Part shown: positions 3,641-64,000 of the stretch, piece after piece | Numbering within the stretch: position 1 is the first letter of the stretch | How the letters are laid out: every line of letters begins with the position of its first letter | Origin: Hirudinaria manillensis | Lineage: Eukaryota > Annelida > Clitellata > Hirudinida > Hirudinidae | Direction: 5' to 3' | DNA: 64,000 bases | Assembly (NCBI GenBank): GCA_034509925.1 | Contig: CM067527.1 | Span: 7,812,501-7,876,500 of the forward strand | Made by a program: the position numbers and the translations under genes | The notes under the pieces: generated by a model | What the model saw: only the letters and a program-made list of their open reading frames with translations | The model's database searches: none | Told to the model about the DNA's origin: nothing

Positions 3641-3673
<33 letters not shown>

Positions 3674-3692
3674 TATCCATCCGTCCACATGT
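3431..3692. repeat. (CCAT)n tetranucleotide array
   Basis: CCAT repeat of about 260 bp, interrupted by a TTCACTCGTTCATCCGTC patch near 3540-3560 and by degenerate units at the right end. It produces spurious Ile-His-Pro-Ser and Trp-Met-Asp-Gly frames on the two strands. Confidence 0.97.
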
Positions 3693-8726: not shown

Positions 8727-8893
8727 GATGGATGGATGGATGGATGGATGGATGGATGGATGGATGGATGGATGGATGGATGGATGGATGGATGGATGGA
8801 TGGATGGATGGATGGATGGATGGATGGATGGATGGACGGACGGACGGACGGGCGGATGTATAGATGGATGGACGGACGAATGGATGAATGGAT
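8727..8893. repeat. (GGAT)n tetranucleotide array
   Basis: Uninterrupted GGAT repeat to about 8836, then GGAC/GGGC variants. It is the same motif family as the CCAT tract at 3431, in the opposite orientation. Confidence 0.97.
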
Positions 8894-45306: not shown

Positions 45307-45796
45307 ATTCTCGACTACCATCGTCCAGACGTTGTCGCAGAATCTATAGCCCTTCATATTGCCTTTGAAAGAAATGCTTTTCTTGGCACCCTTTTCTATG
45401 GCTTTGTTCGCGGCCTTGTCAAACTTTTCGACGATTTTCATGGCCAAATCCGCCGACATCTGACCACTTAGAATCAGTTCGTCGATAGTTTCGACGAGGC
45501 TTTTGCACAGAGTCGTATTTCGATACAATTTCTCACTCATGCTGACAATTACGTGCTTCGGTGCGATAGGAATAGTGCGCTGCTCAGATTTCGACCCGTC
45601 ACGAGGCTCACTTTGGCAATAATGACGAGTAGAACCGAACTCTCTACTTATATAGATTCTGGCAGCCACCCAATTTGCATATGCTACTGTGCGCTATTGT
45701 TTGGCGCACGCGTGCTATTGTTTAGAGCGCGCCTGCTACAGCCCCGGAGCGCCAGTGTCACGTGATGCGTTTATTTTATTTTTATTAATTACTTAA

Positions 45797-45924
45797 GCGA
45801 ATATCTATTTTTGAGGATTTATTTTCATCTATTGCGTCCAATAAAACGCGATTTTTTATTTTATTTAATACCCATCCTAATTTTGTTTTTAATTTTACGA
45901 CTTGCGAATATCTATTTTTGAGGT
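45797..45924. repeat. direct repeat inside each spacer
   Basis: The 20-mer GCGAATATCTATTTTTGAGG occurs twice per unit, here at 45797 and 45904 (period about 107 bp). Each is followed by related TATTT-CA-CTATT and ATGCCC...TTTTT sequence, so the spacer itself contains an old internal duplication. Confidence 0.8.
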
Positions 45925-46021
45925 TTTACTAACACCTATTTCATCTACTTAAATTCTAAATGCTAATTTTTTTATGCCCTTTCGAATAGGGGCGATTTTT
46001 CTTATATCTACGCGAATCGCA

Positions 46022-46330
46022 TCACTGCTTTGCGTCGTACGCGACGATTTTGACTTTGTCGACGTGAGCGACACTGTTATTCTCCCTAAATTCTGCATTC
46101 TCGACTACCATCGTCCAGACGTTGTCGCAGAATCTATAGCCCTTCATATTGCCTTTGAAAGAAATGCTTTTCTTGGCACCCTTTTCTATGGCTTTGTTCG
46201 CGGCCTTGTCAAACTTTTCGACGATTTTCATGGCCAAATCCGCCGACATCTGACCACTTAGAATCAGTTCGTCGATAGTTTCGACGAGGCTTTTGCACAG
46301 AGTCGTATTTCGATACAATTTCTCACTCAT
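46022..46330 (-). CDS. GTF2A2: TFIIA gamma (small) subunit, array copy 2, reference copy
   Basis: Small subunit of general transcription factor TFIIA, which binds TBP and upstream DNA and stabilises TBP on promoters. 102 residues (human 109). Residues 3-50 are the N-terminal helical part (KLYRNTTLCKSLVETIDEL, then FDKAANKAIEK). Residues 51-102 are the beta-barrel half with SFKGNMKGYRFCDNVWT and VDKVKIVAYDAK, all hallmark segments of the family. The Met at 46330 is chosen because it matches the family start. A longer open frame beginning with GTG at 46459 runs through the TATA box and would be untranslated. No introns. Downstream of the stop, AATAAA occurs on the minus strand within the AT-rich spacer. 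Whether this is the only TFIIA-gamma in the genome or a paralog of an intron-bearing gene elsewhere cannot be told here. Confidence 0.95.
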   Translation of the reverse strand: MSEKLYRNTTLCKSLVETIDELILSGQMSADLAMKIVEKFDKAANKAIEKGAKKSISFKGNMKGYRFCDNVWTMVVENAEFRENNSVAHVDKVKIVAYDAKQ

Positions 46331-46436
46331 GCTGACAATTACGTGCTTCGGTGCGATAGGAATAGTGCGCTGCTCAGATTTCGACCCGTCACGAGGCTCA
46401 CTTTGGCAATAATGACGAGTAGAACCGAACTCTCTA

Positions 46437-46555
46437 CTTATATAGATTCTGGCAGCCACCCAATTTGCATATGCTACTGTGCGCTATTGTTTGGCGCACG
46501 CGTGCTATTGTTTAGAGCGCGCCTGCTACAGCCCCGGAGCGCCAGTGTCACGTGA
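46437..46555 (-). promoter_or_regulatory. array-unit promoter: TATA box, octamer, two SOX-like sites, E-box
   Basis: Given for copy 2; the same block lies 107-225 bp upstream of the ATG in every copy. Reading towards the gene on the minus strand: TCACGTGA palindrome (46548-46555), AAACAATAG (46505-46513), AAACAATAG (46484-46492), octamer ATGCAAAT (46463-46470) and TATATAAG (46437-46444). Octamer and TATA are 18 bp apart. A start site about 30 bp below the TATA box would leave a 5' UTR of roughly 75 bases. The octamer is the POU-factor site of histone H2B and snRNA promoters; AACAATAG resembles SOX sites. Binding is inferred from motif identity only. Confidence 0.75.
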
Positions 46556-46818
46556 TGCGTTTATTTTATTTTTATTAATTACTTAAGCGAATATCTATTT
46601 TTGAGGATTTATTTTCATCTATTGCGTCCAATAAAACGCGATTTTTTATTTTATTTTATGCCCATCCTAATTTTTTTTTAATTTTACGACTTGCGAATAT
46701 CTATTTTTGAGGTTTCATTTACACCTATTTCATCTACTAAAATTCTAAATGTTAAATTTATTTTTATTTTATGCTCTTTCGAATAGGGGCGATTTTTCTT
46801 ATATCTACGCGAATCGCA

Positions 46819-47127
46819 TCACTGCTTTGCGTCGTACGCGACGATTTTGACTTTGTCGACGTGAGCGACACTGTTATTCTCCCTAAATTCTGCATTCTCG
46901 ACTACCATCGTCCAGACGTTGTCGCAGAATCTATAGCCCTTCATATTGCCTTTGAAAGAAATGCTTTTCTTGGCACCCTTTTCTATGGCTTTGTTCGCGG
47001 CCTCGTCAAACTTTTCGACGATTTTCATGGCCAAATCCGCCGACATCTGACCACTTAGAATCAGTTCGTCGATAGTTTCGACGAGGCTTTTGCACAGAGT
47101 CGTATTTCGATACAATTTCTCACTCAT
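46819..47127 (-). CDS. GTF2A2: TFIIA gamma subunit, array copy 3 (K42E)
   Basis: Same as copy 2 except for one codon: Lys42 is Glu (FDEAANK), from a single base change. It is the only amino-acid difference seen among the intact copies. The 3' spacer has ATGCTCTTTCG instead of ATGCCCTTTCG and a ttcatttacacc variant shared with copy 4. Confidence 0.94.
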   Translation of the reverse strand: MSEKLYRNTTLCKSLVETIDELILSGQMSADLAMKIVEKFDEAANKAIEKGAKKSISFKGNMKGYRFCDNVWTMVVENAEFRENNSVAHVDKVKIVAYDAKQ

Positions 47128-47615
47128 GCTGACAATTACGTGCTTCGGTGCGATAGGAATAGTGCGCTGCTCAGATTTCGACCCGTCACGAGGCTCACTT
47201 TGGCAATAATGACGAGTAGAACCGAACTCTCTACTTATATAGATTCTGGTAGCCACCCAATTTGCATATGCTACTGTGCGCTATTGTTTGGCGCACGCGT
47301 GCTATTGTTTAGAGCGCGCCTGCTACAGCCCCGGAGCGCCAGTGTCACGTGATGCGTTTATTTTATTTTTATTAATTACTTAAGCGAATATCTATTTTTG
47401 AGGATTTATTTTCATCTATTGCGTCCAATAAAACGCGATTTTTTATTTTATTTTATGCCCATCCTAATTTTTTTTTAATTTTACGACTTGCGAATATCTA
47501 TTTTTGAGGTTTCATTTACACCTATTTCATCTACTAAAATTCTAAATGTTAAATTTATTTTTATTTTATGCTCTTTCGAATAGGGGCGATTTTTCTTATA
47601 TCTACGCGAATCGCA

Positions 47616-47924
47616 TCACTGCTTTGCGTCGTACGCGACGATTTTGACTTTGTCGACGTGAGCGACACTGTTATTCTCCCTAAATTCTGCATTCTCGACT
47701 ACCATCGTCCAGACGTTGTCGCAGAATCTATAGCCCTTCATATTGCCTTTGAAAGAAATGCTTTTCTTGGCACCCTTTTCTATGGCTTTGTTCGCGGCCT
47801 TGTCAAACTTTTCGACGATTTTCATGGCCAAATCCGCCGACATCTGACCACTTAGAATCAGTTCGTCGATAGTTTCGACGAGGCTTTTGCACAGAGTCGT
47901 ATTTCGATACAATTTCTCACTCAT
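47616..47924 (-). CDS. GTF2A2: TFIIA gamma subunit, array copy 4
   Basis: Protein identical to copy 2. A base change just below the TATA box (GAGGGTTCGG for GAGAGTTCGG) is shared with copy 6. The 3' spacer is of the 797-bp type, as for copy 3. Confidence 0.94.
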   Translation of the reverse strand: MSEKLYRNTTLCKSLVETIDELILSGQMSADLAMKIVEKFDKAANKAIEKGAKKSISFKGNMKGYRFCDNVWTMVVENAEFRENNSVAHVDKVKIVAYDAKQ

Positions 47925-48400
47925 GCTGACAATTACGTGCTTCGGTGCGATAGGAATAGTGCGCTGCTCAGATTTCGACCCGTCACGAGGCTCACTTTGG
48001 CAATAATGACGAGTAGAACCGAACCCTCTACTTATATAGATTCTGGCAGCCACCCAATTTGCATATGCTACTGTGCGCTATTGTTTGGCGCACGCGTGCT
48101 ATTGTTTAGAGCGCGCCTGCTACAGCCCCGGAGCGCCAGTGTCACGTGATGCGTTTATTTCATTTTTATTAATTACTTAAGCGAATATCTATTTTTGAAG
48201 ATTTATTTTCATCTATTGCGTCCAATAAAACGCGATTTTTTATTTTATGCCCATCCTAATTTTTTTTTTTAATTTTACGACTTGCGAATATCTATTTTTG
48301 AGGTTTTATTTACACCTATTTCATCTACTAAAATTCTAAATGCTAATTTTTTTATGCCCTTCGAATAGGGGCGATTTTTCTTATATCTACGCGAATCGCA

Positions 48401-48709
48401 TCACTGCTTTGCGTCGTACGCGACGATTTTGACTTTGTCGACGTGAGCGACACTGTTATTCTCCCTAAATTCTGCATTCTCGACTACCATCGTCCAGACG
48501 TTGTCGCAGAATCTATAGCCCTTCATATTGCCTTTGAAAGAAATGCTTTTCTTGGCACCCTTTTCTATGGCTTTGTTCGCGGCCTTGTCAAACTTTTCGA
48601 CGATTTTCATGGCCAAATCCGCCGACATCTGACCACTTAGAATCAGTTCGTCGATAGTTTCGACGAGGCTTTTGCACAGAGTCGTATTTCGATACAATTT
48701 CTCACTCAT
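48401..48709 (-). CDS. GTF2A2: TFIIA gamma subunit, array copy 5
   Basis: Protein identical to copy 2. One T is missing in the conserved ATGCCCTTTCG element downstream of the stop (48354-48363), and the adjacent T run is longer than usual. Confidence 0.94.
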   Translation of the reverse strand: MSEKLYRNTTLCKSLVETIDELILSGQMSADLAMKIVEKFDKAANKAIEKGAKKSISFKGNMKGYRFCDNVWTMVVENAEFRENNSVAHVDKVKIVAYDAKQ

Positions 48710-49183
48710 GCTGACAATTACGTGCTTCGGTGCGATAGGAATAGTGCGCTGCTCAGATTTCGACCCGTCACGAGGCTCACTTTGGCAATAATGACGAGTA
48801 GAACCGAACTCTCTACTTATATAGATTCTGGCAGCCACCCAATTTGCATATGCTACTGTGCGCTATTGTTTGGCGCACGCGTGCTATTGTTTAGAGCGCG
48901 CCTGCTACAGCCCCGGAGCGCCAGTGTCACGTGATGCGTTTATTTTATTTTTATTAATTACTTAAGCGAATATCTATTTTTGAAGATTTATTTTCATATA
49001 TTGCGTCCAATAAAACGCGATTTTTTATTTTATGCCCATCCTAATTTTTTTTAATTTTACGACTTGCGAATATCTATTTTTGAGGTTTTATTTACACCTA
49101 TTTCATCTACTAAAATTCTAAATGCTAATTTTTTTATGCCCTTTCGAATAGGGGCGATTTTTCTTATATCTACGCGAATCGCA

Positions 49184-49492
49184 TCACTGCTTTGCGTCGT
49201 ACGCGACGATTTTGACTTTGTCGACGTGAGCGACACTGTTATTCTCCCTAAATTCTGCATTCTCGACTACCATCGTCCAGACGTTGTCGCAGAATCTATA
49301 GCCCTTCATATTGCCTTTGAAAGAAATGCTTTTCTTGGCACCCTTTTCTATGGCTTTGTTCGCGGCCTTGTCAAACTTTTCGACGATTTTCATGGCCAAA
49401 TCCGCCGACATCTGACCACTTAGAATCAGTTCGTCGATAGTTTCGACGAGGCTTTTGCACAGAGTCGTATTTCGATACAATTTCTCACTCAT
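49184..49492 (-). CDS. GTF2A2: TFIIA gamma subunit, array copy 6
   Basis: Protein identical to copy 2. It shares with copy 4 the change below the TATA box and a TTTATTTCATTTTT variant beyond the promoter, so 4-5 and 6-7 look like a two-unit duplication. Confidence 0.94.
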   Translation of the reverse strand: MSEKLYRNTTLCKSLVETIDELILSGQMSADLAMKIVEKFDKAANKAIEKGAKKSISFKGNMKGYRFCDNVWTMVVENAEFRENNSVAHVDKVKIVAYDAKQ

Positions 49493-49968
49493 GCTGACAA
49501 TTACGTGCTTCGGTGCGATAGGAATAGTGCGCTGCTCAGATTTCGACCCGTCACGAGGCTCACTTTGGCAATAATGACGAGTAGAACCGAACCCTCTACT
49601 TATATAGATTCTGGCAGCCACCCAATTTGCATATGCTACTGTGCGCTATTGTTTGGCGCACGCGTGCTATTGTTTAGAGCGCGCCTGCTACAGCCCCGGA
49701 GCGCCAGTGTCACGTGATGCGTTTATTTCATTTTTATTAATTACTTAAGCGAATATCTATTTTTGAAGATTTATTTTCATCTATTGCGTCCAATAAAACG
49801 CGATTTTTTATTTTATGCCCATCCTAATTTTTTTTTTAATTTTACGACTTGCGAATATCTATTTTTGAGGTTTTATTTACACCTATTTCATCTACTAAAA
49901 TTCTAAATGCTAATTTTTTTATGCCCTTTCGAATAGGGGCGATTTTTCTTATATCTACGCGAATCGCA

Positions 49969-50277
49969 TCACTGCTTTGCGTCGTACGCGACGATTTTGA
50001 CTTTGTCGACGTGAGCGACACTGTTATTCTCCCTAAATTCTGCATTCTCGACTACCATCGTCCAGACGTTGTCGCAGAATCTATAGCCCTTCATATTGCC
50101 TTTGAAAGAAATGCTTTTCTTGGCACCCTTTTCTATGGCTTTGTTCGCGGCCTTGTCAAACTTTTCGACGATTTTCATGGCCAAATCCGCCGACATCTGA
50201 CCACTTAGAATCAGTTCGTCGATAGTTTCGACGAGGCTTTTGCACAGAGTCGTATTTCGATACAATTTCTCACTCAT
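49969..50277 (-). CDS. GTF2A2: TFIIA gamma subunit, array copy 7
   Basis: Protein identical to copy 2. The spacer on its promoter side has TTTTTGGGGATT where other units have GAGG or GAAG. Confidence 0.94.
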   Translation of the reverse strand: MSEKLYRNTTLCKSLVETIDELILSGQMSADLAMKIVEKFDKAANKAIEKGAKKSISFKGNMKGYRFCDNVWTMVVENAEFRENNSVAHVDKVKIVAYDAKQ

Positions 50278-50756
50278 GCTGACAATTACGTGCTTCGGTG
50301 CGATAGGAATAGTGCGCTGCTCAGATTTCGACCCGTCACGAGGCTCACTTTGGCAATAATGACGAGTAGAACCGAACTCTCTACTTATATAGATTCTGGC
50401 AGCCACCCAATTTGCATATGCTACTGTGCGCTATTGTTTGGCGCACGCGTGCTATTGTTTAGAGCGCGCCTGCTACAGCCCCGGAGCGCCAGTGTCACGT
50501 GATGCGTTTATTTTATTTTTATTAATTACTTAAGCGAATATCTATTTTTGGGGATTTATTTTCATCTATTGCGTCCAATAAAACGCGATTTTTTATTTTA
50601 TTTTATGCCCATCCTAATTTTTTTTAATTTTACGACTTGCGAATATCTATTTTTGAGGTTTTACTAACACCTATTTCATCTACTAAAATTCTAAATGCTA
50701 ATTTTTTTATGCCCTTTCGAATAGGGGCGATTTTTCTTATATCTACGCGAATCGCA

Positions 50757-51065
50757 TCACTGCTTTGCGTCGTACGCGACGATTTTGACTTTGTCGACGT
50801 GAGCGACACTGTTATTCTCCCTAAATTCTGCATTCTCGACTACCATCGTCCAGACGTTGTCGCAGAATCTATAGCCCTTCATATTGCCTTTGAAAGAAAT
50901 GCTTTTCTTGGCACCCTTTTCTATGGCTTTGTTCGCGGCCTTGTCAAACTTTTCGACGATTTTCATGGCCAAATCCGCCGACATCTGACCACTTAGAATC
51001 AGTTCGTCGATAGTTTCGACGAGGCTTTTGCACAGAGTCGTATTTCGATACAATTTCTCACTCAT
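50757..51065 (-). CDS. GTF2A2: TFIIA gamma subunit, array copy 8
   Basis: Protein identical to copy 2. The 3' spacer carries the ttttactaacacc variant. The spacer on its promoter side has an unbroken T run (51378-51387). Confidence 0.94.
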   Translation of the reverse strand: MSEKLYRNTTLCKSLVETIDELILSGQMSADLAMKIVEKFDKAANKAIEKGAKKSISFKGNMKGYRFCDNVWTMVVENAEFRENNSVAHVDKVKIVAYDAKQ

Positions 51066-51545
51066 GCTGACAATTACGTGCTTCGGTGCGATAGGAATAG
51101 TGCGCTGCTCAGATTTCGACCCGTCACGAGGCTCACTTTGGCAATAATGACGAGTAGAACCGAACTCTCTACTTATATAGATTCTGGCAGCCACCCAATT
51201 TGCATATGCTACTGTGCGCTATTGTTTGGCGCACGCGTGCTATTGTTTAGAGCGCGCCTGCTACAGCCCCGGAGCGCCAGTGTCACGTGATGCGTTTATT
51301 TTATTTTTATTAATTACTTAAGCGAATATCTATTTTTGAGGATTTATTTTCATCTATTGCGTCCAATAAAACGCGATTTTTTTTTTTATTTTATGCCCAT
51401 CCTAATTTTTTTTTAATTTTACGACTTGCGAATATCTATTTTTGAGGTTTTATTTACACCTATTTCATCTACTAAAATTCTAAATGCTAATTTTTTTATG
51501 CCCTTTCGAATAGGGGCGATTTTTCTTATATCTACGCGAATCGCA

Positions 51546-51854
51546 TCACTGCTTTGCGTCGTACGCGACGATTTTGACTTTGTCGACGTGAGCGACACTG
51601 TTATTCTCCCTAAATTCTGCATTCTCGACTACCATCGTCCAGACGTTGTCGCAGAATCTATAGCCCTTCATATTGCCTTTGAAAGAAATGCTTTTCTTGG
51701 CACCCTTTTCTATGGCTTTGTTCGCGGCCTTGTCAAACTTTTCGACGATTTTCATGGCCAAATCCGCCGACATCTGACCACTTAGAATCAGTTCGTCGAT
51801 AGTTTCGACGAGGCTTTTGCACAGAGTCGTATTTCGATACAATTTCTCACTCAT
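51546..51854 (-). CDS. GTF2A2: TFIIA gamma subunit, array copy 9
   Basis: Protein identical to copy 2. Going rightward, it is the first copy with GTGATGCCTTTATT (not GCGTTTATT) next to the E-box. Confidence 0.94.
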   Translation of the reverse strand: MSEKLYRNTTLCKSLVETIDELILSGQMSADLAMKIVEKFDKAANKAIEKGAKKSISFKGNMKGYRFCDNVWTMVVENAEFRENNSVAHVDKVKIVAYDAKQ

Positions 51855-52330
51855 GCTGACAATTACGTGCTTCGGTGCGATAGGAATAGTGCGCTGCTCA
51901 GATTTCGACCCGTCACGAGGCTCACTTTGGCAATAATGACGAGTAGAACCGAACTCTCTACTTATATAGATTCTGGCAGCCACCCAATTTGCATATGCTA
52001 CTGTGCGCTATTGTTTGGCGCACGCGTGCTATTGTTTAGAGCGCGCCTGCTACAGCCCCGGAGCGCCAGTGTCACGTGATGCCTTTATTTTATTTTTATT
52101 AATTACTTAAGCGAATATCTATTTTTGAAGATTTATTTTCATCTATTGCGTCCAATAAAACGCGATTTTTTATTTTATGCCCATCCTAATTTTTTTTTTA
52201 ATTTTACGACTTGCGAATATCTATTTTTGAGGTTTTATTTACACCTATTTCATCTACTTAAATTCTAAATGCTAATTTTTTTATGCCCTTTCGAATAGGG
52301 GCGATTTTTCTTATATCTACGCGAATCGCA

Positions 52331-52639
52331 TCACTGCTTTGCGTCGTACGCGACGATTTTGACTTTGTCGACGTGAGCGACACTGTTATTCTCCCTAAAT
52401 TCTGCATTCTCGACTACCATCGTCCAGACGTTGTCGCAGAATCTATAGCCCTTCATATTGCCTTTGAAAGAAATGCTTTTCTTGGCACCCTTTTCTATGG
52501 CTTTGTTCGCGGCCTTGTCAAACTTTTCGACGATTTTCATGGCCAAATCCGCCGACATCTGACCACTTAGAATCAGTTCGTCGATAGTTTCGACGAGGCT
52601 TTTGCACAGAGTCGTATTTCGATACAATTTCTCACTCAT
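52331..52639 (-). CDS. GTF2A2: TFIIA gamma subunit, array copy 10
   Basis: Protein identical to copy 2. The 797-bp spacer between copies 10 and 11 matches that between 20 and 21. Confidence 0.94.
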   Translation of the reverse strand: MSEKLYRNTTLCKSLVETIDELILSGQMSADLAMKIVEKFDKAANKAIEKGAKKSISFKGNMKGYRFCDNVWTMVVENAEFRENNSVAHVDKVKIVAYDAKQ

Positions 52640-53127
52640 GCTGACAATTACGTGCTTCGGTGCGATAGGAATAGTGCGCTGCTCAGATTTCGACCCGTCA
52701 CGAGGCTCACTTTGGCAATAATGACGAGTAGAACCGAACTCTCTACTTATATAGATTCTGGCAGCCACCCAATTTGCATATGCTACTGTGCGCTATTGTT
52801 TGGCGCACGCGTGCTATTGTTTAGAGCGCGCCTGCTACAGCCCCGGAGCGCCAGTGTCACGTGATGCGTTTATTTTATTTTTATTAATTACTTAAGCGAA
52901 TATCTATTTTTGAGGATTTATTTTCATCTATTGCGTCCAATAAAACGCGATTTTTTATTTTATTTTATGCCCATCCTAATTTTTTTTTAATTTTACGACT
53001 TGCGAATATCTATTTTTGAGGTTTTACTAACACCTATTTCATCTACTAAAATTCTAAATGTTAATTTTATTTTTATTTTATGCCCTTTCGAATAGGGGCG
53101 ATTTTTCTTATATCTACGCGAATCGCA

Positions 53128-53436
53128 TCACTGCTTTGCGTCGTACGCGACGATTTTGACTTTGTCGACGTGAGCGACACTGTTATTCTCCCTAAATTCT
53201 GCATTCTCGACTACCATCGTCCAGACGTTGTCGCAGAATCTATAGCCCTTCATATTGCCTTTGAAAGAAATGCTTTTCTTGGCACCCTTTTCTATGGCTT
53301 TGTTCGCGGCCTTGTCAAACTTTTCGACGATTTTCATGGCCAAATCCGCCGACATCTGACCACTTAGAATCAGTTCGTCGATAGTTTCGACGAGGCTTTT
53401 GCACAGAGTCGTATTTCGATACAATTTCTCACTCAT
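53128..53436 (-). CDS. GTF2A2: TFIIA gamma subunit, array copy 11
   Basis: Protein identical to copy 2. The spacer to copy 12 has AATTTTTCGACTT (T for A), a variant seen again beside copies 16, 18, 21 and 23. Confidence 0.94.
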   Translation of the reverse strand: MSEKLYRNTTLCKSLVETIDELILSGQMSADLAMKIVEKFDKAANKAIEKGAKKSISFKGNMKGYRFCDNVWTMVVENAEFRENNSVAHVDKVKIVAYDAKQ

Positions 53437-53912
53437 GCTGACAATTACGTGCTTCGGTGCGATAGGAATAGTGCGCTGCTCAGATTTCGACCCGTCACGA
53501 GGCTCACTTTGGCAATAATGACGAGTAGAACCGAACTCTCTACTTATATAGATTCTGGCAGCCACCCAATTTGCATATGCTACTGTGCGCTATTGTTTGG
53601 CGCACGCGTGCTATTGTTTAGAGCGCGCCTGCTACAGCCCCGGAGCGCCAGTGTCACGTGATGCCTTTATTTTATTTTTATTAATTACTTAAGCGAATAT
53701 CTATTTTTGAAGATTTATTTTCATCTATTGCGTCCAATAAAACGCGATTTTTTATTTTATGCCCATCCTAATTTTTTTTTTAATTTTTCGACTTGCGAAT
53801 ATCTATTTTTGAGGTTTTATTTACACCTATTTCATCTACTTAAATTCTAAATGCTAATTTTTTTATGCCCTTTCGAATAGGGGCGATTTTTCTTATATCT
53901 ACGCGAATCGCA

Positions 53913-54221
53913 TCACTGCTTTGCGTCGTACGCGACGATTTTGACTTTGTCGACGTGAGCGACACTGTTATTCTCCCTAAATTCTGCATTCTCGACTACC
54001 ATCGTCCAGACGTTGTCGCAGAATCTATAGCCCTTCATATTGCCTTTGAAAGAAATGCTTTTCTTGGCACCCTTTTCTATGGCTTTGTTCGCGGCCTTGT
54101 CAAACTTTTCGACGATTTTCATGGCCAAATCCGCCGACATCTGACCACTTAGAATCAGTTCGTCGATAGTTTCGACGAGGCTTTTGCACAGAGTCGTATT
54201 TCGATACAATTTCTCACTCAT
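53913..54221 (-). CDS. GTF2A2: TFIIA gamma subunit, array copy 12
   Basis: Protein identical to copy 2. The spacer to copy 13 has TTTAATACCCATCC and AATTTTGTTTTT, otherwise seen only between copies 1 and 2. Confidence 0.94.
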   Translation of the reverse strand: MSEKLYRNTTLCKSLVETIDELILSGQMSADLAMKIVEKFDKAANKAIEKGAKKSISFKGNMKGYRFCDNVWTMVVENAEFRENNSVAHVDKVKIVAYDAKQ

Positions 54222-54702
54222 GCTGACAATTACGTGCTTCGGTGCGATAGGAATAGTGCGCTGCTCAGATTTCGACCCGTCACGAGGCTCACTTTGGCAA
54301 TAATGACGAGTAGAACCGAACTCTCTACTTATATAGATTCTGGCAGCCACCCAATTTGCATATGCTACTGTGCGCTATTGTTTGGCGCACGCGTGCTATT
54401 GTTTAGAGCGCGCCTGCTACAGCCCCGGAGCGCCAGTGTCACGTGATGCCTTTATTTTATTTTTATTAATTACTTAAGCGAATATCTATTTTTGAAGATT
54501 TATTTTCATCTATTGCGTCCAATAAAACGCGATTTTTTATTTTATTTAATACCCATCCTAATTTTGTTTTTAATTTTACGACTTGCGAATATCTATTTTT
54601 GAGGTTTTATTTACACCTATTTCATCTACTTAAATTCTAAATGCTAATTTTTTTATGCCCTTTCGAATAGGGGCGATTTTTCTTATATCTACGCGAATCG
54701 CA

Positions 54703-55011
54703 TCACTGCTTTGCGTCGTACGCGACGATTTTGACTTTGTCGACGTGAGCGACACTGTTATTCTCCCTAAATTCTGCATTCTCGACTACCATCGTCCAGA
54801 CGTTGTCGCAGAATCTATAGCCCTTCATATTGCCTTTGAAAGAAATGCTTTTCTTGGCACCCTTTTCTATGGCTTTGTTCGCGGCCTTGTCAAACTTTTC
54901 GACGATTTTCATGGCCAAATCCGCCGACATCTGACCACTTAGAATCAGTTCGTCGATAGTTTCGACGAGGCTTTTGCACAGAGTCGTATTTCGATACAAT
55001 TTCTCACTCAT
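54703..55011 (-). CDS. GTF2A2: TFIIA gamma subunit, array copy 13
   Basis: Protein identical to copy 2. The spacer to copy 14 is of the common 785-bp type (GCCTTT, GAAGAT, CTACTTAAATTC). Confidence 0.94.
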   Translation of the reverse strand: MSEKLYRNTTLCKSLVETIDELILSGQMSADLAMKIVEKFDKAANKAIEKGAKKSISFKGNMKGYRFCDNVWTMVVENAEFRENNSVAHVDKVKIVAYDAKQ

Positions 55012-55487
55012 GCTGACAATTACGTGCTTCGGTGCGATAGGAATAGTGCGCTGCTCAGATTTCGACCCGTCACGAGGCTCACTTTGGCAATAATGACGAG
55101 TAGAACCGAACTCTCTACTTATATAGATTCTGGCAGCCACCCAATTTGCATATGCTACTGTGCGCTATTGTTTGGCGCACGCGTGCTATTGTTTAGAGCG
55201 CGCCTGCTACAGCCCCGGAGCGCCAGTGTCACGTGATGCCTTTATTTTATTTTTATTAATTACTTAAGCGAATATCTATTTTTGAAGATTTATTTTCATC
55301 TATTGCGTCCAATAAAACGCGATTTTTTATTTTATGCCCATCCTAATTTTTTTTTTAATTTTACGACTTGCGAATATCTATTTTTGAGGTTTTATTTACA
55401 CCTATTTCATCTACTTAAATTCTAAATGCTAATTTTTTTATGCTCTTTCGAATAGGGGCGATTTTTCTTATATCTACGCGAATCGCA

Positions 55488-55796
55488 TCACTGCTTTGCG
55501 TCGTACGCGACGATTTTGACTTTGTCGACGTGAGCGACACTGTTATTCTCCCTAAATTCTGCATTCTCGACTACCATCGTCCAGACGTTGTCGCAGAATC
55601 TATAGCCCTTCATATTGCCTTTGAAAGAAATGCTTTTCTTGGCACCCTTTTCTATGGCTTTGTTCGCGGCCTTGTCAAACTTTTCGACGATTTTCATGGC
55701 CAAATCCGCCGACATCTGACCACTTAGAATCAGTTCGTCGATAGTTTCGACGAGGCTTTTGCACAGAGTCGTATTTCGATACAATTTCTCACTCAT
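55488..55796 (-). CDS. GTF2A2: TFIIA gamma subunit, array copy 14
   Basis: Protein identical to copy 2. The 3' element reads ATGCTCTTTCG as in copies 3 and 4. Confidence 0.94.
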   Translation of the reverse strand: MSEKLYRNTTLCKSLVETIDELILSGQMSADLAMKIVEKFDKAANKAIEKGAKKSISFKGNMKGYRFCDNVWTMVVENAEFRENNSVAHVDKVKIVAYDAKQ

Positions 55797-56272
55797 GCTG
55801 ACAATTACGTGCTTCGGTGCGATAGGAATAGTGCGCTGCTCAGATTTCGACCCGTCACGAGGCTCACTTTGGCAATAATGACGAGTAGAACCGAACTCTC
55901 TACTTATATAGATTCTGGCAGCCACCCAATTTGCATATGCTACTGTGCGCTATTGTTTGGCGCACGCGTGCTATTGTTTAGAGCGCGCCTGCTACAGCCC
56001 CGGAGCGCCAGTGTCACGTGATGCCTTTATTTTATTTTTATTAATTACTTAAGCGAATATCTATTTTTGAAGATTTATTTTCATCTATTGCGTCCAATAA
56101 AACGCGATTTTTTATTTTATGCCCATCCTAATTTTTTTTTTAATTTTACGACTTGCGAATATCTATTTTTGAGGTTTTATTTACACCTATTTCATCTACT
56201 TAAATTCTAAATGCTAATTTTTTTATGCCCTTTCGAATAGGGGCGATTTTTCTTATATCTACGCGAATCGCA

Positions 56273-56581
56273 TCACTGCTTTGCGTCGTACGCGACGATT
56301 TTGACTTTGTCGACGTGAGCGACACTGTTATTCTCCCTAAATTCTGCATTCTCGACTACCATCGTCCAGACGTTGTCGCAGAATCTATAGCCCTTCATAT
56401 TGCCTTTGAAAGAAATGCTTTTCTTGGCACCCTTTTCTATGGCTTTGTTCGCGGCCTTGTCAAACTTTTCGACGATTTTCATGGCCAAATCCGCCGACAT
56501 CTGACCACTTAGAATCAGTTCGTCGATAGTTTCGACGAGGCTTTTGCACAGAGTCGTATTTCGATACAATTTCTCACTCAT
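56273..56581 (-). CDS. GTF2A2: TFIIA gamma subunit, array copy 15
   Basis: Protein identical to copy 2. The spacer to copy 16 has the ttttactaacacc and AATGTTAATTTTTTTT variants. Confidence 0.94.
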   Translation of the reverse strand: MSEKLYRNTTLCKSLVETIDELILSGQMSADLAMKIVEKFDKAANKAIEKGAKKSISFKGNMKGYRFCDNVWTMVVENAEFRENNSVAHVDKVKIVAYDAKQ

Positions 56582-57059
56582 GCTGACAATTACGTGCTTC
56601 GGTGCGATAGGAATAGTGCGCTGCTCAGATTTCGACCCGTCACGAGGCTCACTTTGGCAATAATGACGAGTAGAACCGAACTCTCTACTTATATAGATTC
56701 TGGCAGCCACCCAATTTGCATATGCTACTGTGCGCTATTGTTTGGCGCACGCGTGCTATTGTTTAGAGCGCGCCTGCTACAGCCCCGGAGCGCCAGTGTC
56801 ACGTGATGCGTTTATTTTATTTTTATTAATTACTTAAGCGAATATCTATTTTTGAGGATTTATTTTCATCTATTGCGTCCAATAAAACGCGATTTTTTAT
56901 TTTATGCCCATCCTAATTTTTTTTTTAATTTTACGACTTGCGAATATCTATTTTTGAGGTTTTACTAACACCTATTTCATCTACTAAAATTCTAAATGTT
57001 AATTTTTTTTTATGCCCTTTCGAATAGGGGCGATTTTTCTTATATCTACGCGAATCGCA

Positions 57060-57368
57060 TCACTGCTTTGCGTCGTACGCGACGATTTTGACTTTGTCGA
57101 CGTGAGCGACACTGTTATTCTCCCTAAATTCTGCATTCTCGACTACCATCGTCCAGACGTTGTCGCAGAATCTATAGCCCTTCATATTGCCTTTGAAAGA
57201 AATGCTTTTCTTGGCACCCTTTTCTATGGCTTTGTTCGCGGCCTTGTCAAACTTTTCGACGATTTTCATGGCCAAATCCGCCGACATCTGACCACTTAGA
57301 ATCAGTTCGTCGATAGTTTCGACGAGGCTTTTGCACAGAGTCGTATTTCGATACAATTTCTCACTCAT
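57060..57368 (-). CDS. GTF2A2: TFIIA gamma subunit, array copy 16
   Basis: Protein identical to copy 2. It begins a block (16-18) whose spacer variants match copies 21-23. Confidence 0.94.
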   Translation of the reverse strand: MSEKLYRNTTLCKSLVETIDELILSGQMSADLAMKIVEKFDKAANKAIEKGAKKSISFKGNMKGYRFCDNVWTMVVENAEFRENNSVAHVDKVKIVAYDAKQ

Positions 57369-57843
57369 GCTGACAATTACGTGCTTCGGTGCGATAGGAA
57401 TAGTGCGCTGCTCAGATTTCGACCCGTCACGAGGCTCACTTTGGCAATAATGACGAGTAGAACCGAACTCTCTACTTATATAGATTCTGGCAGCCACCCA
57501 ATTTGCATATGCTACTGTGCGCTATTGTTTGGCGCACGCGTGCTATTGTTTAGAGCGCGCCTGCTACAGCCCCGGAGCGCCAGTGTCACGTGATGCCTTT
57601 ATTTTATTTTTATTAATTACTTAAGCGAATATCTATTTTTGAAGATTTATTTTCATCTATTGCGTCCAATAAAACGCGATTTTTTATTTTATGCCCATCC
57701 TAATTTTTTTTTAATTTTTCGACTTGCGAATATCTATTTTTGAGGTTTTATTTACACCTATTTCATCTACTTAAATTCTAAATGCTAATTTTTTTATGCC
57801 CTTTCGAATAGGGGCGATTTTTCTTATATCTACGCGAATCGCA

Positions 57844-58152
57844 TCACTGCTTTGCGTCGTACGCGACGATTTTGACTTTGTCGACGTGAGCGACACTGTT
57901 ATTCTCCCTAAATTCTGCATTCTCGACTACCATCGTCCAGACGTTGTCGCAGAATCTATAGCCCTTCATATTGCCTTTGAAAGAAATGCTTTTCTTGGCA
58001 CCCTTTTCTATGGCTTTGTTCGCGGCCTTGTCAAACTTTTCGACGATTTTCATGGCCAAATCCGCCGACATCTGACCACTTAGAATCAGTTCGTCGATAG
58101 TTTCGACGAGGCTTTTGCACAGAGTCGTATTTCGATACAATTTCTCACTCAT
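57844..58152 (-). CDS. GTF2A2: TFIIA gamma subunit, array copy 17
   Basis: Protein identical to copy 2. It has a GGTAGCCACC change between TATA and octamer (GGCAGCCACC elsewhere), shared with copies 3 and 22. Confidence 0.94.
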   Translation of the reverse strand: MSEKLYRNTTLCKSLVETIDELILSGQMSADLAMKIVEKFDKAANKAIEKGAKKSISFKGNMKGYRFCDNVWTMVVENAEFRENNSVAHVDKVKIVAYDAKQ

Positions 58153-58632
58153 GCTGACAATTACGTGCTTCGGTGCGATAGGAATAGTGCGCTGCTCAGA
58201 TTTCGACCCGTCACGAGGCTCACTTTGGCAATAATGACGAGTAGAACCGAACTCTCTACTTATATAGATTCTGGTAGCCACCCAATTTGCATATGCTACT
58301 GTGCGCTATTGTTTGGCGCACGCGTGCTATTGTTTAGAGCGCGCCTGCTACAGCCCCGGAGCGCCAGTGTCACGTGATGCGTTTATTTTATTTTTATTAA
58401 TTACTTAAGCGAATATCTATTTTTGAGGATTTATTTTCATCTATTGCGTCCAATAAAACGCGATTTTTTATTTTATTTTATGCCCATCCTAATTTTTTTT
58501 TAATTTTATGACTTGCGAATATCTATTTTTGAGGTTTTACTAACACCTATTTCATCTACTTAAATTCTAAATGCTAATTTTTTTATGCCCTTTCGAATAG
58601 GGGCGATTTTTCTTATATCTACGCGAATCGCA

Positions 58633-58941
58633 TCACTGCTTTGCGTCGTACGCGACGATTTTGACTTTGTCGACGTGAGCGACACTGTTATTCTCCCTAA
58701 ATTCTGCATTCTCGACTACCATCGTCCAGACGTTGTCGCAGAATCTATAGCCCTTCATATTGCCTTTGAAAGAAATGCTTTTCTTGGCACCCTTTTCTAT
58801 GGCTTTGTTCGCGGCCTTGTCAAACTTTTCGACGATTTTCATGGCCAAATCCGCCGACATCTGACCACTTAGAATCAGTTCGTCGATAGTTTCGACGAGG
58901 CTTTTGCACAGAGTCGTATTTCGATACAATTTCTCACTCAT
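58633..58941 (-). CDS. GTF2A2: TFIIA gamma subunit, array copy 18
   Basis: Protein identical to copy 2. The spacer between 17 and 18 has AATTTTATGACTT, found otherwise only between 22 and 23. Confidence 0.94.
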   Translation of the reverse strand: MSEKLYRNTTLCKSLVETIDELILSGQMSADLAMKIVEKFDKAANKAIEKGAKKSISFKGNMKGYRFCDNVWTMVVENAEFRENNSVAHVDKVKIVAYDAKQ

Positions 58942-59422
58942 GCTGACAATTACGTGCTTCGGTGCGATAGGAATAGTGCGCTGCTCAGATTTCGACCCGT
59001 CACGAGGCTCACTTTGGCAATAATGACGAGTAGAACCGAACTCTCTACTTATATAGATTCTGGCAGCCACCCAATTTGCATATGCTACTGTGCGCTATTG
59101 TTTGGCGCACGCGTGCTATTGTTTAGAGCGCGCCTGCTACAGCCCCGGAGCGCCAGTGTCACGTGATGCGTTTATTTTATTTTTATTAATTACTTAAGCG
59201 AATATCTATTTTTGAGGATTTATTTTCATCTATTGCGTCCAATAAAACGCGATTTTTTATTTTATTTTAATGCCCATCCTAATTTTTTTTTAATTTTTCG
59301 ACTTGCGAATATCTATTTTTGAGGTTTTATTTACACCTATTTCATCTACTTAAATTCTAAATGCTAATTTTTTTATGCCCTTTCGAATAGGGGCGATTTT
59401 TCTTATATCTACGCGAATCGCA

Positions 59423-59731
59423 TCACTGCTTTGCGTCGTACGCGACGATTTTGACTTTGTCGACGTGAGCGACACTGTTATTCTCCCTAAATTCTGCATT
59501 CTCGACTACCATCGTCCAGACGTTGTCGCAGAATCTATAGCCCTTCATATTGCCTTTGAAAGAAATGCTTTTCTTGGCACCCTTTTCTATGGCTTTGTTC
59601 GCGGCCTTGTCAAACTTTTCGACGATTTTCATGGCCAAATCCGCCGACATCTGACCACTTAGAATCAGTTCGTCGATAGTTTCGACGAGGCTTTTGCACA
59701 GAGTCGTATTTCGATACAATTTCTCACTCAT
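59423..59731 (-). CDS. GTF2A2: TFIIA gamma subunit, array copy 19
   Basis: Protein identical to copy 2. The spacer from copy 18 has a unique TTTTAATGCCC. Confidence 0.94.
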   Translation of the reverse strand: MSEKLYRNTTLCKSLVETIDELILSGQMSADLAMKIVEKFDKAANKAIEKGAKKSISFKGNMKGYRFCDNVWTMVVENAEFRENNSVAHVDKVKIVAYDAKQ

Positions 59732-60207
59732 GCTGACAATTACGTGCTTCGGTGCGATAGGAATAGTGCGCTGCTCAGATTTCGACCCGTCACGAGGCTC
59801 ACTTTGGCAATAATGACGAGTAGAACCGAACTCTCTACTTATATAGATTCTGGCAGCCACCCAATTTGCATATGCTACTGTGCGCTATTGTTTGGCGCAC
59901 GCGTGCTATTGTTTAGAGCGCGCCTGCTACAGCCCCGGAGCGCCAGTGTCACGTGATGCCTTTATTTTATTTTTATTAATTACTTAAGCGAATATCTATT
60001 TTTGAAGATTTATTTTCATCTATTGCGTCCAATAAAACGCGATTTTTTATTTTATGCCCATCCTAATTTTTTTTTTAATTTTACGACTTGCGAATATCTA
60101 TTTTTGAGGTTTTATTTACACCTATTTCATCTACTTAAATTCTAAATGCTAATTTTTTTATGCCCTTTCGAATAGGGGCGATTTTTCTTATATCTACGCG
60201 AATCGCA

Positions 60208-60516
60208 TCACTGCTTTGCGTCGTACGCGACGATTTTGACTTTGTCGACGTGAGCGACACTGTTATTCTCCCTAAATTCTGCATTCTCGACTACCATCGT
60301 CCAGACGTTGTCGCAGAATCTATAGCCCTTCATATTGCCTTTGAAAGAAATGCTTTTCTTGGCACCCTTTTCTATGGCTTTGTTCGCGGCCTTGTCAAAC
60401 TTTTCGACGATTTTCATGGCCAAATCCGCCGACATCTGACCACTTAGAATCAGTTCGTCGATAGTTTCGACGAGGCTTTTGCACAGAGTCGTATTTCGAT
60501 ACAATTTCTCACTCAT
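60208..60516 (-). CDS. GTF2A2: TFIIA gamma subunit, array copy 20
   Basis: Protein identical to copy 2. It sits 7877 bp (ten units) from copy 10, whose promoter-side spacer it repeats. Confidence 0.94.
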   Translation of the reverse strand: MSEKLYRNTTLCKSLVETIDELILSGQMSADLAMKIVEKFDKAANKAIEKGAKKSISFKGNMKGYRFCDNVWTMVVENAEFRENNSVAHVDKVKIVAYDAKQ

Positions 60517-61004
60517 GCTGACAATTACGTGCTTCGGTGCGATAGGAATAGTGCGCTGCTCAGATTTCGACCCGTCACGAGGCTCACTTTGGCAATAATG
60601 ACGAGTAGAACCGAACTCTCTACTTATATAGATTCTGGCAGCCACCCAATTTGCATATGCTACTGTGCGCTATTGTTTGGCGCACGCGTGCTATTGTTTA
60701 GAGCGCGCCTGCTACAGCCCCGGAGCGCCAGTGTCACGTGATGCGTTTATTTTATTTTTATTAATTACTTAAGCGAATATCTATTTTTGAGGATTTATTT
60801 TCATCTATTGCGTCCAATAAAACGCGATTTTTTATTTTATTTTATGCCCATCCTAATTTTTTTTTAATTTTACGACTTGCGAATATCTATTTTTGAGGTT
60901 TTACTAACACCTATTTCATCTACTAAAATTCTAAATGTTAATTTTATTTTTATTTTATGCCCTTTCGAATAGGGGCGATTTTTCTTATATCTACGCGAAT
61001 CGCA

Positions 61005-61313
61005 TCACTGCTTTGCGTCGTACGCGACGATTTTGACTTTGTCGACGTGAGCGACACTGTTATTCTCCCTAAATTCTGCATTCTCGACTACCATCGTCCA
61101 GACGTTGTCGCAGAATCTATAGCCCTTCATATTGCCTTTGAAAGAAATGCTTTTCTTGGCACCCTTTTCTATGGCTTTGTTCGCGGCCTTGTCAAACTTT
61201 TCGACGATTTTCATGGCCAAATCCGCCGACATCTGACCACTTAGAATCAGTTCGTCGATAGTTTCGACGAGGCTTTTGCACAGAGTCGTATTTCGATACA
61301 ATTTCTCACTCAT
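61005..61313 (-). CDS. GTF2A2: TFIIA gamma subunit, array copy 21
   Basis: Protein identical to copy 2. It matches copies 11 and 16 in spacer type. Confidence 0.94.
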   Translation of the reverse strand: MSEKLYRNTTLCKSLVETIDELILSGQMSADLAMKIVEKFDKAANKAIEKGAKKSISFKGNMKGYRFCDNVWTMVVENAEFRENNSVAHVDKVKIVAYDAKQ

Positions 61314-61789
61314 GCTGACAATTACGTGCTTCGGTGCGATAGGAATAGTGCGCTGCTCAGATTTCGACCCGTCACGAGGCTCACTTTGGCAATAATGACG
61401 AGTAGAACCGAACTCTCTACTTATATAGATTCTGGCAGCCACCCAATTTGCATATGCTACTGTGCGCTATTGTTTGGCGCACGCGTGCTATTGTTTAGAG
61501 CGCGCCTGCTACAGCCCCGGAGCGCCAGTGTCACGTGATGCCTTTATTTTATTTTTATTAATTACTTAAGCGAATATCTATTTTTGAAGATTTATTTTCA
61601 TCTATTGCGTCCAATAAAACGCGATTTTTTATTTTATGCCCATCCTAATTTTTTTTTTAATTTTTCGACTTGCGAATATCTATTTTTGAGGTTTTATTTA
61701 CACCTATTTCATCTACTTAAATTCTAAATGCTAATTTTTTTATGCCCTTTCGAATAGGGGCGATTTTTCTTATATCTACGCGAATCGCA

Positions 61790-62098
61790 TCACTGCTTTG
61801 CGTCGTACGCGACGATTTTGACTTTGTCGACGTGAGCGACACTGTTATTCTCCCTAAATTCTGCATTCTCGACTACCATCGTCCAGACGTTGTCGCAGAA
61901 TCTATAGCCCTTCATATTGCCTTTGAAAGAAATGCTTTTCTTGGCACCCTTTTCTATGGCTTTGTTCGCGGCCTTGTCAAACTTTTCGACGATTTTCATG
62001 GCCAAATCCGCCGACATCTGACCACTTAGAATCAGTTCGTCGATAGTTTCGACGAGGCTTTTGCACAGAGTCGTATTTCGATACAATTTCTCACTCAT
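61790..62098 (-). CDS. GTF2A2: TFIIA gamma subunit, array copy 22
   Basis: Protein identical to copy 2. It shares the promoter change GGTAGCCACC with copy 17, 3946 bp away. Confidence 0.94.
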   Translation of the reverse strand: MSEKLYRNTTLCKSLVETIDELILSGQMSADLAMKIVEKFDKAANKAIEKGAKKSISFKGNMKGYRFCDNVWTMVVENAEFRENNSVAHVDKVKIVAYDAKQ

Positions 62099-62578
62099 GC
62101 TGACAATTACGTGCTTCGGTGCGATAGGAATAGTGCGCTGCTCAGATTTCGACCCGTCACGAGGCTCACTTTGGCAATAATGACGAGTAGAACCGAACTC
62201 TCTACTTATATAGATTCTGGTAGCCACCCAATTTGCATATGCTACTGTGCGCTATTGTTTGGCGCACGCGTGCTATTGTTTAGAGCGCGCCTGCTACAGC
62301 CCCGGAGCGCCAGTGTCACGTGATGCGTTTATTTTATTTTTATTAATTACTTAAGCGAATATCTATTTTTGAGGATTTATTTTCATCTATTGCGTCCAAT
62401 AAAACGCGATTTTTTATTTTATTTTATGCCCATCCTAATTTTTTTTTAATTTTATGACTTGCGAATATCTATTTTTGAGGTTTTACTAACACCTATTTCA
62501 TCTACTTAAATTCTAAATGCTAATTTTTTTATGCCCTTTCGAATAGGGGCGATTTTTCTTATATCTACGCGAATCGCA

Positions 62579-62887
62579 TCACTGCTTTGCGTCGTACGCG
62601 ACGATTTTGACTTTGTCGACGTGAGCGACACTGTTATTCTCCCTAAATTCTGCATTCTCGACTACCATCGTCCAGACGTTGTCGCAGAATCTATAGCCCT
62701 TCATATTGCCTTTGAAAGAAATGCTTTTCTTGGCACCCTTTTCTATGGCTTTGTTCGCGGCCTTGTCAAACTTTTCGACGATTTTCATGGCCAAATCCGC
62801 CGACATCTGACCACTTAGAATCAGTTCGTCGATAGTTTCGACGAGGCTTTTGCACAGAGTCGTATTTCGATACAATTTCTCACTCAT
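62579..62887 (-). CDS. GTF2A2: TFIIA gamma subunit, array copy 23
   Basis: Protein identical to copy 2. The 3' spacer has AATTTTATGACTT, as for copy 18. Confidence 0.94.
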   Translation of the reverse strand: MSEKLYRNTTLCKSLVETIDELILSGQMSADLAMKIVEKFDKAANKAIEKGAKKSISFKGNMKGYRFCDNVWTMVVENAEFRENNSVAHVDKVKIVAYDAKQ

Positions 62888-63363
62888 GCTGACAATTACG
62901 TGCTTCGGTGCGATAGGAATAGTGCGCTGCTCAGATTTCGACCCGTCACGAGGCTCACTTTGGCAATAATGACGAGTAGAACCGAACTCTCTACTTATAT
63001 AGATTCTGGCAGCCACCCAATTTGCATATGCTACTGTGCGCTATTGTTTGGCGCACGCGTGCTATTGTTTAGAGCGCGCCTGCTACAGCCCCGGAGCGCC
63101 AGTGTCACGTGATGCCTTTATTTTATTTTTATTAATTACTTAAGCGAATATCTATTTTTGAGGATTTATTTTCATCTATTGCGTCCAATAAAACGCGATT
63201 TTTTATTTTATGCCCATCCTAATTTTTTTTTTAATTTTTCGACTTGCGAATATCTATTTTTGAGGTTTTATTTACACCTATTTCATCTACTTAAATTCTA
63301 AATGCTAATTTTTTTATGCCCTTTCGAATAGGGGCGATTTTTCTTATATCTACGCGAATCGCA

Positions 63364-63672
63364 TCACTGCTTTGCGTCGTACGCGACGATTTTGACTTTG
63401 TCGACGTGAGCGACACTGTTATTCTCCCTAAATTCTGCATTCTCGACTACCATCGTCCAGACGTTGTCGCAGAATCTATAGCCCTTCATATTGCCTTTGA
63501 AAGAAATGCTTTTCTTGGCACCCTTTTCTATGGCTTTGTTCGCGGCCTTGTCAAACTTTTCGACGATTTTCATGGCCAAATCCGCCGACATCTGACCACT
63601 TAGAATCAGTTCGTCGATAGTTTCGACGAGGCTTTTGCACAGAGTCGTATTTCGATACAATTTCTCACTCAT
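63364..63672 (-). CDS. GTF2A2: TFIIA gamma subunit, array copy 24
   Basis: Last complete copy in view. Protein identical to copy 2, promoter complete. The spacer beyond it (63900-64000) continues as normal array sequence to the window edge. Confidence 0.94.
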   Translation of the reverse strand: MSEKLYRNTTLCKSLVETIDELILSGQMSADLAMKIVEKFDKAANKAIEKGAKKSISFKGNMKGYRFCDNVWTMVVENAEFRENNSVAHVDKVKIVAYDAKQ

Positions 63673-64000
63673 GCTGACAATTACGTGCTTCGGTGCGATA
63701 GGAATAGTGCGCTGCTCAGATTTCGACCCGTCACGAGGCTCACTTTGGCAATAATGACGAGTAGAACCGAACTCTCTACTTATATAGATTCTGGCAGCCA
63801 CCCAATTTGCATATGCTACTGTGCGCTATTGTTTGGCGCACGCGTGCTATTGTTTAGAGCGCGCCTGCTACAGCCCCGGAGCGCCAGTGTCACGTGATGC
63901 GTTTATTTTATTTTTATTAATTACTTAAGCGAATATCTATTTTTGAAGATTTATTTTCATCTATTGCGTCCAATAAAACGCGATTTTTTATTTTATGCCC

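Follow-up and report, generated by a model that had tools for sequence, protein, structure and literature searches.

The 64,000-nucleotide stretch analysed here (the window, C2:7812501-7876500) ends in a tandem array of intronless genes for a protein related to TFIIA-gamma, the small subunit of the general transcription factor TFIIA. This array continues beyond the window and has four counterparts elsewhere in the genome; the five, on four contigs, all consist of intronless genes in tandem and encode TFIIA-gamma, TFIIA-alpha/beta, a TLF-like relative of TBP, TFIIB, and a kinase-TFIIB fusion. From their sequences, we interpret the five arrays, with a probability of about 0.58, as genes for an alternative TLF-TFIIA-TFIIB initiation complex that were amplified in the manner of histone genes, most likely to serve germ cells. 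Genes for general transcription factors are commonly regarded as single or low-copy; in this genome, those for the interacting core components of an initiation complex appear to have been duplicated jointly and expanded into arrays. The genome scanned comprised 148.4 Mb in 23 contigs.

An array of 83 TFIIA-gamma-like genes

A sequence-only reading of the window had reported 24 copies of the gene, 23 of them with a complete 102-residue frame, in an array that runs on past the window. Our recount likewise gave 24 minus-strand units (u01 to u24, window positions 45307 to 64000), with u02 to u24 complete, and we followed the array for a further 46,685 bp, to C2:7923185. The whole array consists of 83 head-to-tail units in 65.4 kb (C2:7857807-7923185), and the earlier observation was thus correct but too small. 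Unit length is 783 to 798 bp, except for the two edge units (715 and 772 bp), and identity to a reference unit ranges from 97.9 to 100%. The description of the units as promoter-complete also held, since a core promoter and an intact 102-codon frame are each present in 82 of the 83. One identical protein is encoded by 80 units; the exceptions are u03 (K42E), u83 (V16I), and the edge unit u01 (45307..46021, minus strand), in which unit comparison showed that the coding sequence (CDS) is cut after residue 78 by the array edge.

The array protein matches both TFIIA-gamma domains in Pfam (PF02268 TFIIA_gamma_N, E=2.4e-14, 53.6 bits, cut-off 33; PF02751 TFIIA_gamma_C, E=8e-18, 64.8 bits, cut-off 27) and aligns over 98 residues with human TFIIA-gamma (PDB 1nvp_D residues 3-100, E=2.8e-28). 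It retains Y65 and W72, which we take to be functionally important. By these comparisons the domain assignment is secure, and chance is no explanation for the array. That the assembler inflated one or a few units is highly improbable. Other sequence flanks the array at either end, and among the 81 inner units 64 are distinct, which argues against a simple assembly duplication; unit lengths vary, and similar arrays occur at four other loci. Neighbouring units are hardly more alike than distant ones.

A search for TFIIA-gamma elsewhere in the genome, as the sequence-only reading had advised, found an intron-bearing gene on C6 and two intronless single copies on C2, L015 (9.41 Mb) and L016 (2.00 Mb). 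The C6 gene has at least two introns, as judged by eye, and its product shares 77% identity with human TFIIA-gamma in a 97-residue alignment. Because the array protein is only 56% identical to the C6 gene product, the array encodes a diverged TFIIA-gamma paralog and not extra copies of the ordinary gene; its identity to L015 is 51%. Beyond the array, L015, L016, and the C6 gene, the protein-level genome search gave no match at E 0.001, and these counts are therefore lower bounds.

Unit anatomy and the distribution of variation

The consensus unit of 788 bp is made up of a 309-bp CDS, a predicted 5' untranslated region (5'UTR) of 83 bp, a 144-bp promoter, and a 252-bp spacer. In the reference unit (50757..51545, minus strand, 789 bp), these parts lie in the same order, with the spacer behind the upstream neighbour. 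The CDS (50757..51065, minus strand) is an intronless frame for the 102-amino-acid TFIIA-gamma-like protein identified by the Pfam and PDB matches above. The core promoter, CTATATAAG ... TCATTAT (51144..51180, minus strand), is present in 82 of 83 units, where the TATA box lies some 30 bp away from the TCATTAT initiator, and from this position alone a transcription start site is predicted at about 51148, giving the 83-nucleotide 5'UTR. The GC-rich upstream promoter (51181..51292, minus strand, limits approximate) contains CACGTGAC in 82 units and two copies of AACAATAG and the octamer ATGCAAAT in all 83. The A/T-rich, variable 3' spacer (51293..51545, minus strand, limits approximate) holds two diverged sub-repeats and AATAAA words.

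Variation among the 81 inner units is concentrated in the spacer. Of 31 substitution sites, 26 fall there; the promoter has 2, the 5'UTR 1, and the CDS 2 (one synonymous and one nonsynonymous change); the difference between 26 of 252 spacer positions and 5 of 536 positions in promoter, 5'UTR, and CDS is significant (Fisher P=1.7e-9), and all 30 indel columns are within the spacer. We read this pattern as that of a homogenised functional array. Head-to-tail, promoter-complete units with an invariant gene and a variable spacer are features of histone-style arrays, and the sequence-only reading had proposed a dosage role of the histone or 5S type. That proposal is supported by the anatomy of the unit, with its near-invariant gene and promoter and variable spacer, and by the finding that partner genes are arrayed too. 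Not visible from the window is that the array encodes a diverged paralog, as part of an initiation machinery that has itself been duplicated.

Companion arrays of initiation-factor genes

Arrays were found in four of the five initiation-factor families searched, TFIIF-beta being the exception. The TFIIA-alpha/beta array (C3:6.770-6.784 Mb) has 13 units, with 13 promoters and 13 start sites; 11 of its frames have 265 codons, one has 263, and one has 72. Outside it, we found an intronless single copy (L028) and apparent exons of the canonical gene on C1. The TLF/TRF2-type array (C2:12753116-12766256) comprises 14 units, and the four units read contain intronless frames of 180 amino acids. The TFIIB array (C10:5.075-5.103 Mb) comprises 19 units, 15 forward and 4 inverted, with at least one broken frame, and the one unit read encodes 315 amino acids that match human TFIIB with E=7.8e-68. 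The search for TFIIB also uncovered the kinase-TFIIB array of 26 units (C8:3219606-3267299); the one unit read fully (L045, C8:3230401-3234400) encodes 434 amino acids, with a TFIIB cyclin fold on the C-terminal side of a kinase domain. We know of no other fusion of a kinase with a TFIIB-type cyclin fold; three single-copy relatives of it are present in this genome (L051, L052, and L053).

Intron-broken genes exist elsewhere for TFIIA-gamma, TBP, and TLF, and for TFIIA-alpha/beta and TFIIB there are intron-broken matches only. For TFIIF-beta, two matches on C10 form a pair interrupted by an intron, and six intronless paralogs are scattered over two contigs (C8 at 0.552, 0.602, 0.709, 1.134, and 5.497 Mb; C1:10.325 Mb). 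In one close pair of these, the nonsynonymous rate (dN) is 0.010 and the synonymous rate (dS) 0.109 over 242 codons, and thus these two copies, at least, look constrained. A control family, the proteasome, gave 30 matches and no array.

The TBP-type array groups with TLF/TRF2

In a FastTree phylogeny, the protein of the TBP-type array groups with an intron-bearing gene on C3 and two paralogs on C6 with a support of 1.000; its identity is 47% to the C3 gene, 32% to the TBP on C1, and 52% to the intronless paralog C6a. We take the C3 gene, whose exons were joined by eye, to be TLF. As in the C3 gene, two phenylalanines of TBP are replaced by W and H in the array protein, presumably at positions that matter for DNA contact. 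On these sequence grounds we identify the array as TLF/TRF2. One report describes TRF2 as lacking critical phenylalanines and TATA selection, as binding TFIIA more strongly than TBP does, and as a subunit of TFIIA/ALF in mouse testis (PMC5006001); according to another, TLF binds TFIIA and TFIIB and is required in germ cells (PMC3142196). Given these published binding partners, the arrays encode types of factor known to interact.

As an observation on canonical TBP, near-identical exon matches occur at C1:7377391 and at C15:106227, the latter on a 180-kb contig that is perhaps a haplotig.

A core promoter shared by four arrays

The sequence CTATATAW, followed 17 to 22 bases on by TCAT[CT][AC]T, occurs in 82 of 83 gamma units, 13 of 13 alpha/beta units, 14 of 14 TLF units, and 14 of the 15 forward TFIIB units. 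Genome-wide, this TATA/TCAT pattern has 123 matches, compared with 31 for the control, and at least 41 of them lie in arrays; among the matches listed (up to C11:2229007), same-sequence runs of more than two are confined to the four arrays. Matches outside the arrays also exceed the control, and many of these are AT-rich or ATC microsatellites. With a different spacing, the pattern gave 35 matches against 27 for its control, which is background. In a comparison made after the sequences had been seen, the word ACAAT(A/G)G was present near the TATA box of the gamma, TLF, and kinase arrays and reversed in 13 of 13 alpha/beta units, and it was not found near the TATA box of the TFIIB array.

The shared promoter bears on two other explanations. 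If retrogenes had grown into arrays by unequal crossing-over and gene conversion, copy number could be a neutral by-product without a role. The intronless genes, the homogenised units, and the small tandem clusters of other intronless genes described below are consistent with this, but we consider it improbable, as arrays occur in four of five initiation-factor families against none in the one control family, four arrays have the same promoter type, and variation is largely within the spacer. A selfish, conflict-driven amplification of the Stellate kind, through transmission distortion or an arms race, would account for high numbers of near-identical units encoding diverged paralogs of regulators, and the sequence-only reading had offered it as an alternative. 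It is insufficient as a full account, since the five related arrays, spread over four contigs, supply components of a single type of complex, and a common core promoter is found in all but one of them. Few units are broken (in the gamma array 1 of 83, at the edge; in alpha/beta 1 of 13, the 72-codon frame; in TFIIB at least 1 of 19). In addition, clitellates are simultaneous hermaphrodites (PMC6443171); should the animal belong to them, X-Y drive would not apply. We regard this explanation as distinctly improbable for the arrays together; for single arrays, selfish amplification is possible.

A TATTCAGAATCTTTT promoter class among single-copy paralogs

Thirteen single-copy intronless paralogs were examined upstream of their start codons: two of TFIIA-gamma, one of TFIIA-alpha/beta, two TBP copies on C8, one TLF-type copy on C6, one of TFIIB, three of TFIIF-beta, and three of kinase-TFIIB (for L051, 155 bp of upstream sequence). 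The set does not include the other three TFIIF-beta copies or the TBP copy C6b, whose upstream sequence is masked. None of the 13 has the TATA/TCAT pattern of the arrays. Instead, nine have TATTCANNATCTTT 91 to 213 bp upstream of the ATG; elsewhere in the 329 kb examined, this sequence occurs only at L001, which overlaps L015, and it is present at none of the array loci examined.

The pattern TATTCANNATCTTTY has 739 matches genome-wide, compared with 30 for the reversed pattern. An open reading frame (ORF) of at least 180 amino acids starts 100 to 242 bp downstream of eight of the ten first-listed matches, compared with 0.6% of 2000 random sites (window positions 1-45000), and is missing at the other two (L060 and L062). 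These first-listed matches precede CPSF4-like, SF3A3-like, and SF3B3-like genes, a kinase, a Fuseless-like protein, and two genes that we take to be ataxin-10 (L058, with no Pfam match) and PSMD5 (L061, with no PDB match); one frame with a SAP domain was taken for a retrotransposon gag. Two clusters were chosen because they are clustered, and one unit was read in each: CPSF2-like intronless genes with four motif matches at a period of 2547 bp (L064, C1:9374865-9377600) and genes for a ubiquitin-conjugating (E2) enzyme with four matches at a period of about 1.65 kb (L065, C2:6348885-6350700).

The motif is also found in transposable elements. Both ends of a long terminal repeat (LTR) retrotransposon of about 5.3 kb (C1:8882670-8888029, L071 and L072; L063, L070), 239 bp in length and 100% identical, carry the TATTCAGAATCTTTT motif. 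By eye, L067 to L069 look like another family of transposons in which the motif occurs. Five later matches, hand-picked from the end of the listing with 4-6-kb pairs and a known gene left out, formed a second sample, which contained one host-like ORF (302 amino acids) and four transposon-like sequences. On C1, 24 of 46 matches form same-strand pairs 4 to 6 kb apart, 4 of them in the CPSF2 cluster. The host share of the matches is estimated from few loci.

These elements raise the alternative of a germ-line complex for transcription of transposons or of PIWI-interacting RNA (piRNA) precursors, comparable to Drosophila Moonshiner with TRF2 and TFIIA-S; the arrays would then supply a complex for heterochromatic or LTR promoters. 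The same types of subunit are amplified here (TLF and both the large and the small TFIIA subunit), and the start-site motif of the intronless paralogs is carried by the LTR retrotransposon with its identical 239-bp ends and by L067 to L069. However, the motif also precedes host-type CPSF4-, SF3A3-, SF3B3-, and CPSF2-like genes, and TFIIB and the kinase fusion are arrayed as well; this alternative therefore appears unlikely.

A proposed alternative initiation complex, most likely for germ cells

The preferred interpretation remains a histone-style amplification. We propose that the products of the five arrays, namely a TBP relative of the TLF/TRF2 type, the two TFIIA subunits, TFIIB, and a kinase joined to a cyclin fold of the TFIIB type, make up the core that recognises promoters in an alternative initiation complex for RNA polymerase II. 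Each unit would be an independent gene with its own TATA/initiator promoter, and the arrays would be expressed together, and strongly, in one cell type. Their many copies would allow abundant product within a brief period or a single cell type, in the manner of histone genes. The products would then assemble into a TLF-TFIIA-TFIIB complex that may help to transcribe the TATTCAGAATCTTTT promoter class, that is, single-copy intronless gene-expression paralogs and also LTR retrotransposons. A more tentative version, possible but doubtful in our view, is a two-tier second machinery, in which TATA-driven arrays supply a TLF-TFIIA-TFIIB-kinase complex that in turn uses a private TATTCAGAATCTTTT initiator preceding numerous intronless paralogs (TFIIF, TFIIB, CPSF, SF3, and others), an initiator used also by LTR retrotransposons. 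If so, histone-style arrays would encode the initiation complex itself.

The germ line would be the likeliest site of array expression, because retrotransposons that carry the motif can be inherited only if they are transcribed there, and because germ cells are where TRF2/TFIIA, TBPL2/TFIIA, and Moonshiner act. In one study, TBPL2/TFIIA serves oocyte genes and endogenous retroviral elements (PMC7755920).

Several points weigh against this interpretation. TFIIF-beta has multiplied, yet no array was found among its matches, and the proteasome is the sole control family. Array copy numbers are unequal (83, 13, 14, 19, and 26). The small CPSF2-like and E2-enzyme clusters show that tandem multiplication is not confined to initiation factors. 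The TATA/TCAT pattern is present in none of the four inverted TFIIB units, and the kinase array, which has a TATA box but a different initiator, lacks it. Judged by sequence identity, the array proteins do not clearly derive from the intronless paralogs present in single copy (for gamma, 51% to L015 and 56% to the C6 gene; for TLF, 52% to the intronless C6a and 47% to the C3 gene). Since the gamma CDS has one synonymous and one nonsynonymous change, recent homogenisation, not selection at the protein level, may explain its low variation, and a faster mutation rate of the A/T-rich spacer may add to the contrast. Many of the 739 motif matches are probably transposon ends or LTRs, given the pairs on C1 and the transposon sequences of the second sample. 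Finally, TRF2 of mouse spermatids is found with TBP at all active promoters, its DNA contacts being probably non-specific (PMC5006001), which speaks against TLF reading a private promoter code.

Relation to known systems

Germ-cell alternative initiation complexes are already known, as are tandem arrays of histone and 5S genes, and the mouse TRF2 and TFIIA/ALF genes are single. Among the open-licence literature matches listed, no title or abstract start reports such arrays of general transcription factor genes. Among the systems most like this one is mouse spermatid TRF2 with TFIIA/ALF (PMC5006001), in which a TLF-type TBP relative and a TFIIA variant form an initiation module; unlike mouse TRF2, which acts alongside TBP at all active promoters, the factors described here are diverged TLF, TFIIA, and TFIIB paralogs in intronless arrays. 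Mouse oocyte TBPL2/TFIIA likewise joins a TBP paralog to TFIIA and has a specific start-site code and some endogenous retroviral elements among its targets, but TBPL2 is a TBP2/TRF3-type paralog, not a TLF, and the complex prefers TATA-like promoters (PMC7755920).

Moonshiner, too, is a paralog of the large TFIIA subunit; it acts in non-canonical initiation in the germ line, where it serves piRNA clusters. Its partners are TFIIA-S and TRF2, and we know of no arrays and no TFIIB variant in that system. Histone arrays and 5S rDNA resemble the present arrays in their many short, promoter-complete units with invariant gene and promoter and variable spacer, and differ in that the products here are general transcription factors encoded in five separate arrays. 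Drosophila Stellate similarly consists of tandem copies of a gene paralogous to that of a conserved regulatory subunit; in contrast to the five arrays here, it is one gene type, and it has a Y-linked suppressor. PMC8412364 describes Moonshiner as a Drosophila TFIIA-L paralog recruited for piRNA clusters and Stellate as silenced by Su(Ste) piRNAs.

Should a single cell type prove to express the arrays, they would offer a natural system for asking why the core promoter machinery is altered in some cells, above all germ cells, how promoter codes and their candidate reader factors evolve together, and how retrotransposons follow. In the two cases compared (TFIIA-gamma and TLF), the array protein diverges from its canonical counterpart at roughly half of the residues, so the two should be distinguishable in tissue RNA-seq.

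Other observations

No Rfam match at the gathering threshold was found within the window. Its left part contains long microsatellites (1-539, 3432-3687, 8727-8894, and 19818-20700) built from the words GAT, TCCA, GATG, and AGTG (221 copies). Contig C23 is mitochondrial and, read with code 5, contains cox1, tRNA-Asn, cox2, tRNA-Asp, tRNA-Gly, tRNA-Tyr, and a cox3-like frame over the part read. This gene order and the COX1 sequence resemble those of annelids, perhaps of a leech, and on these grounds we rejected the idea that the TFIIA-gamma array is the X-linked TfIIA-S-2 array of Drosophila; the animal is probably an annelid. A COX1 copy on a nuclear contig (L018, C9:3026446-3027786) has 5 differences in 1341 bp from C23, and its identity with the mitochondrial contig extends for 1061 bp more on one side.

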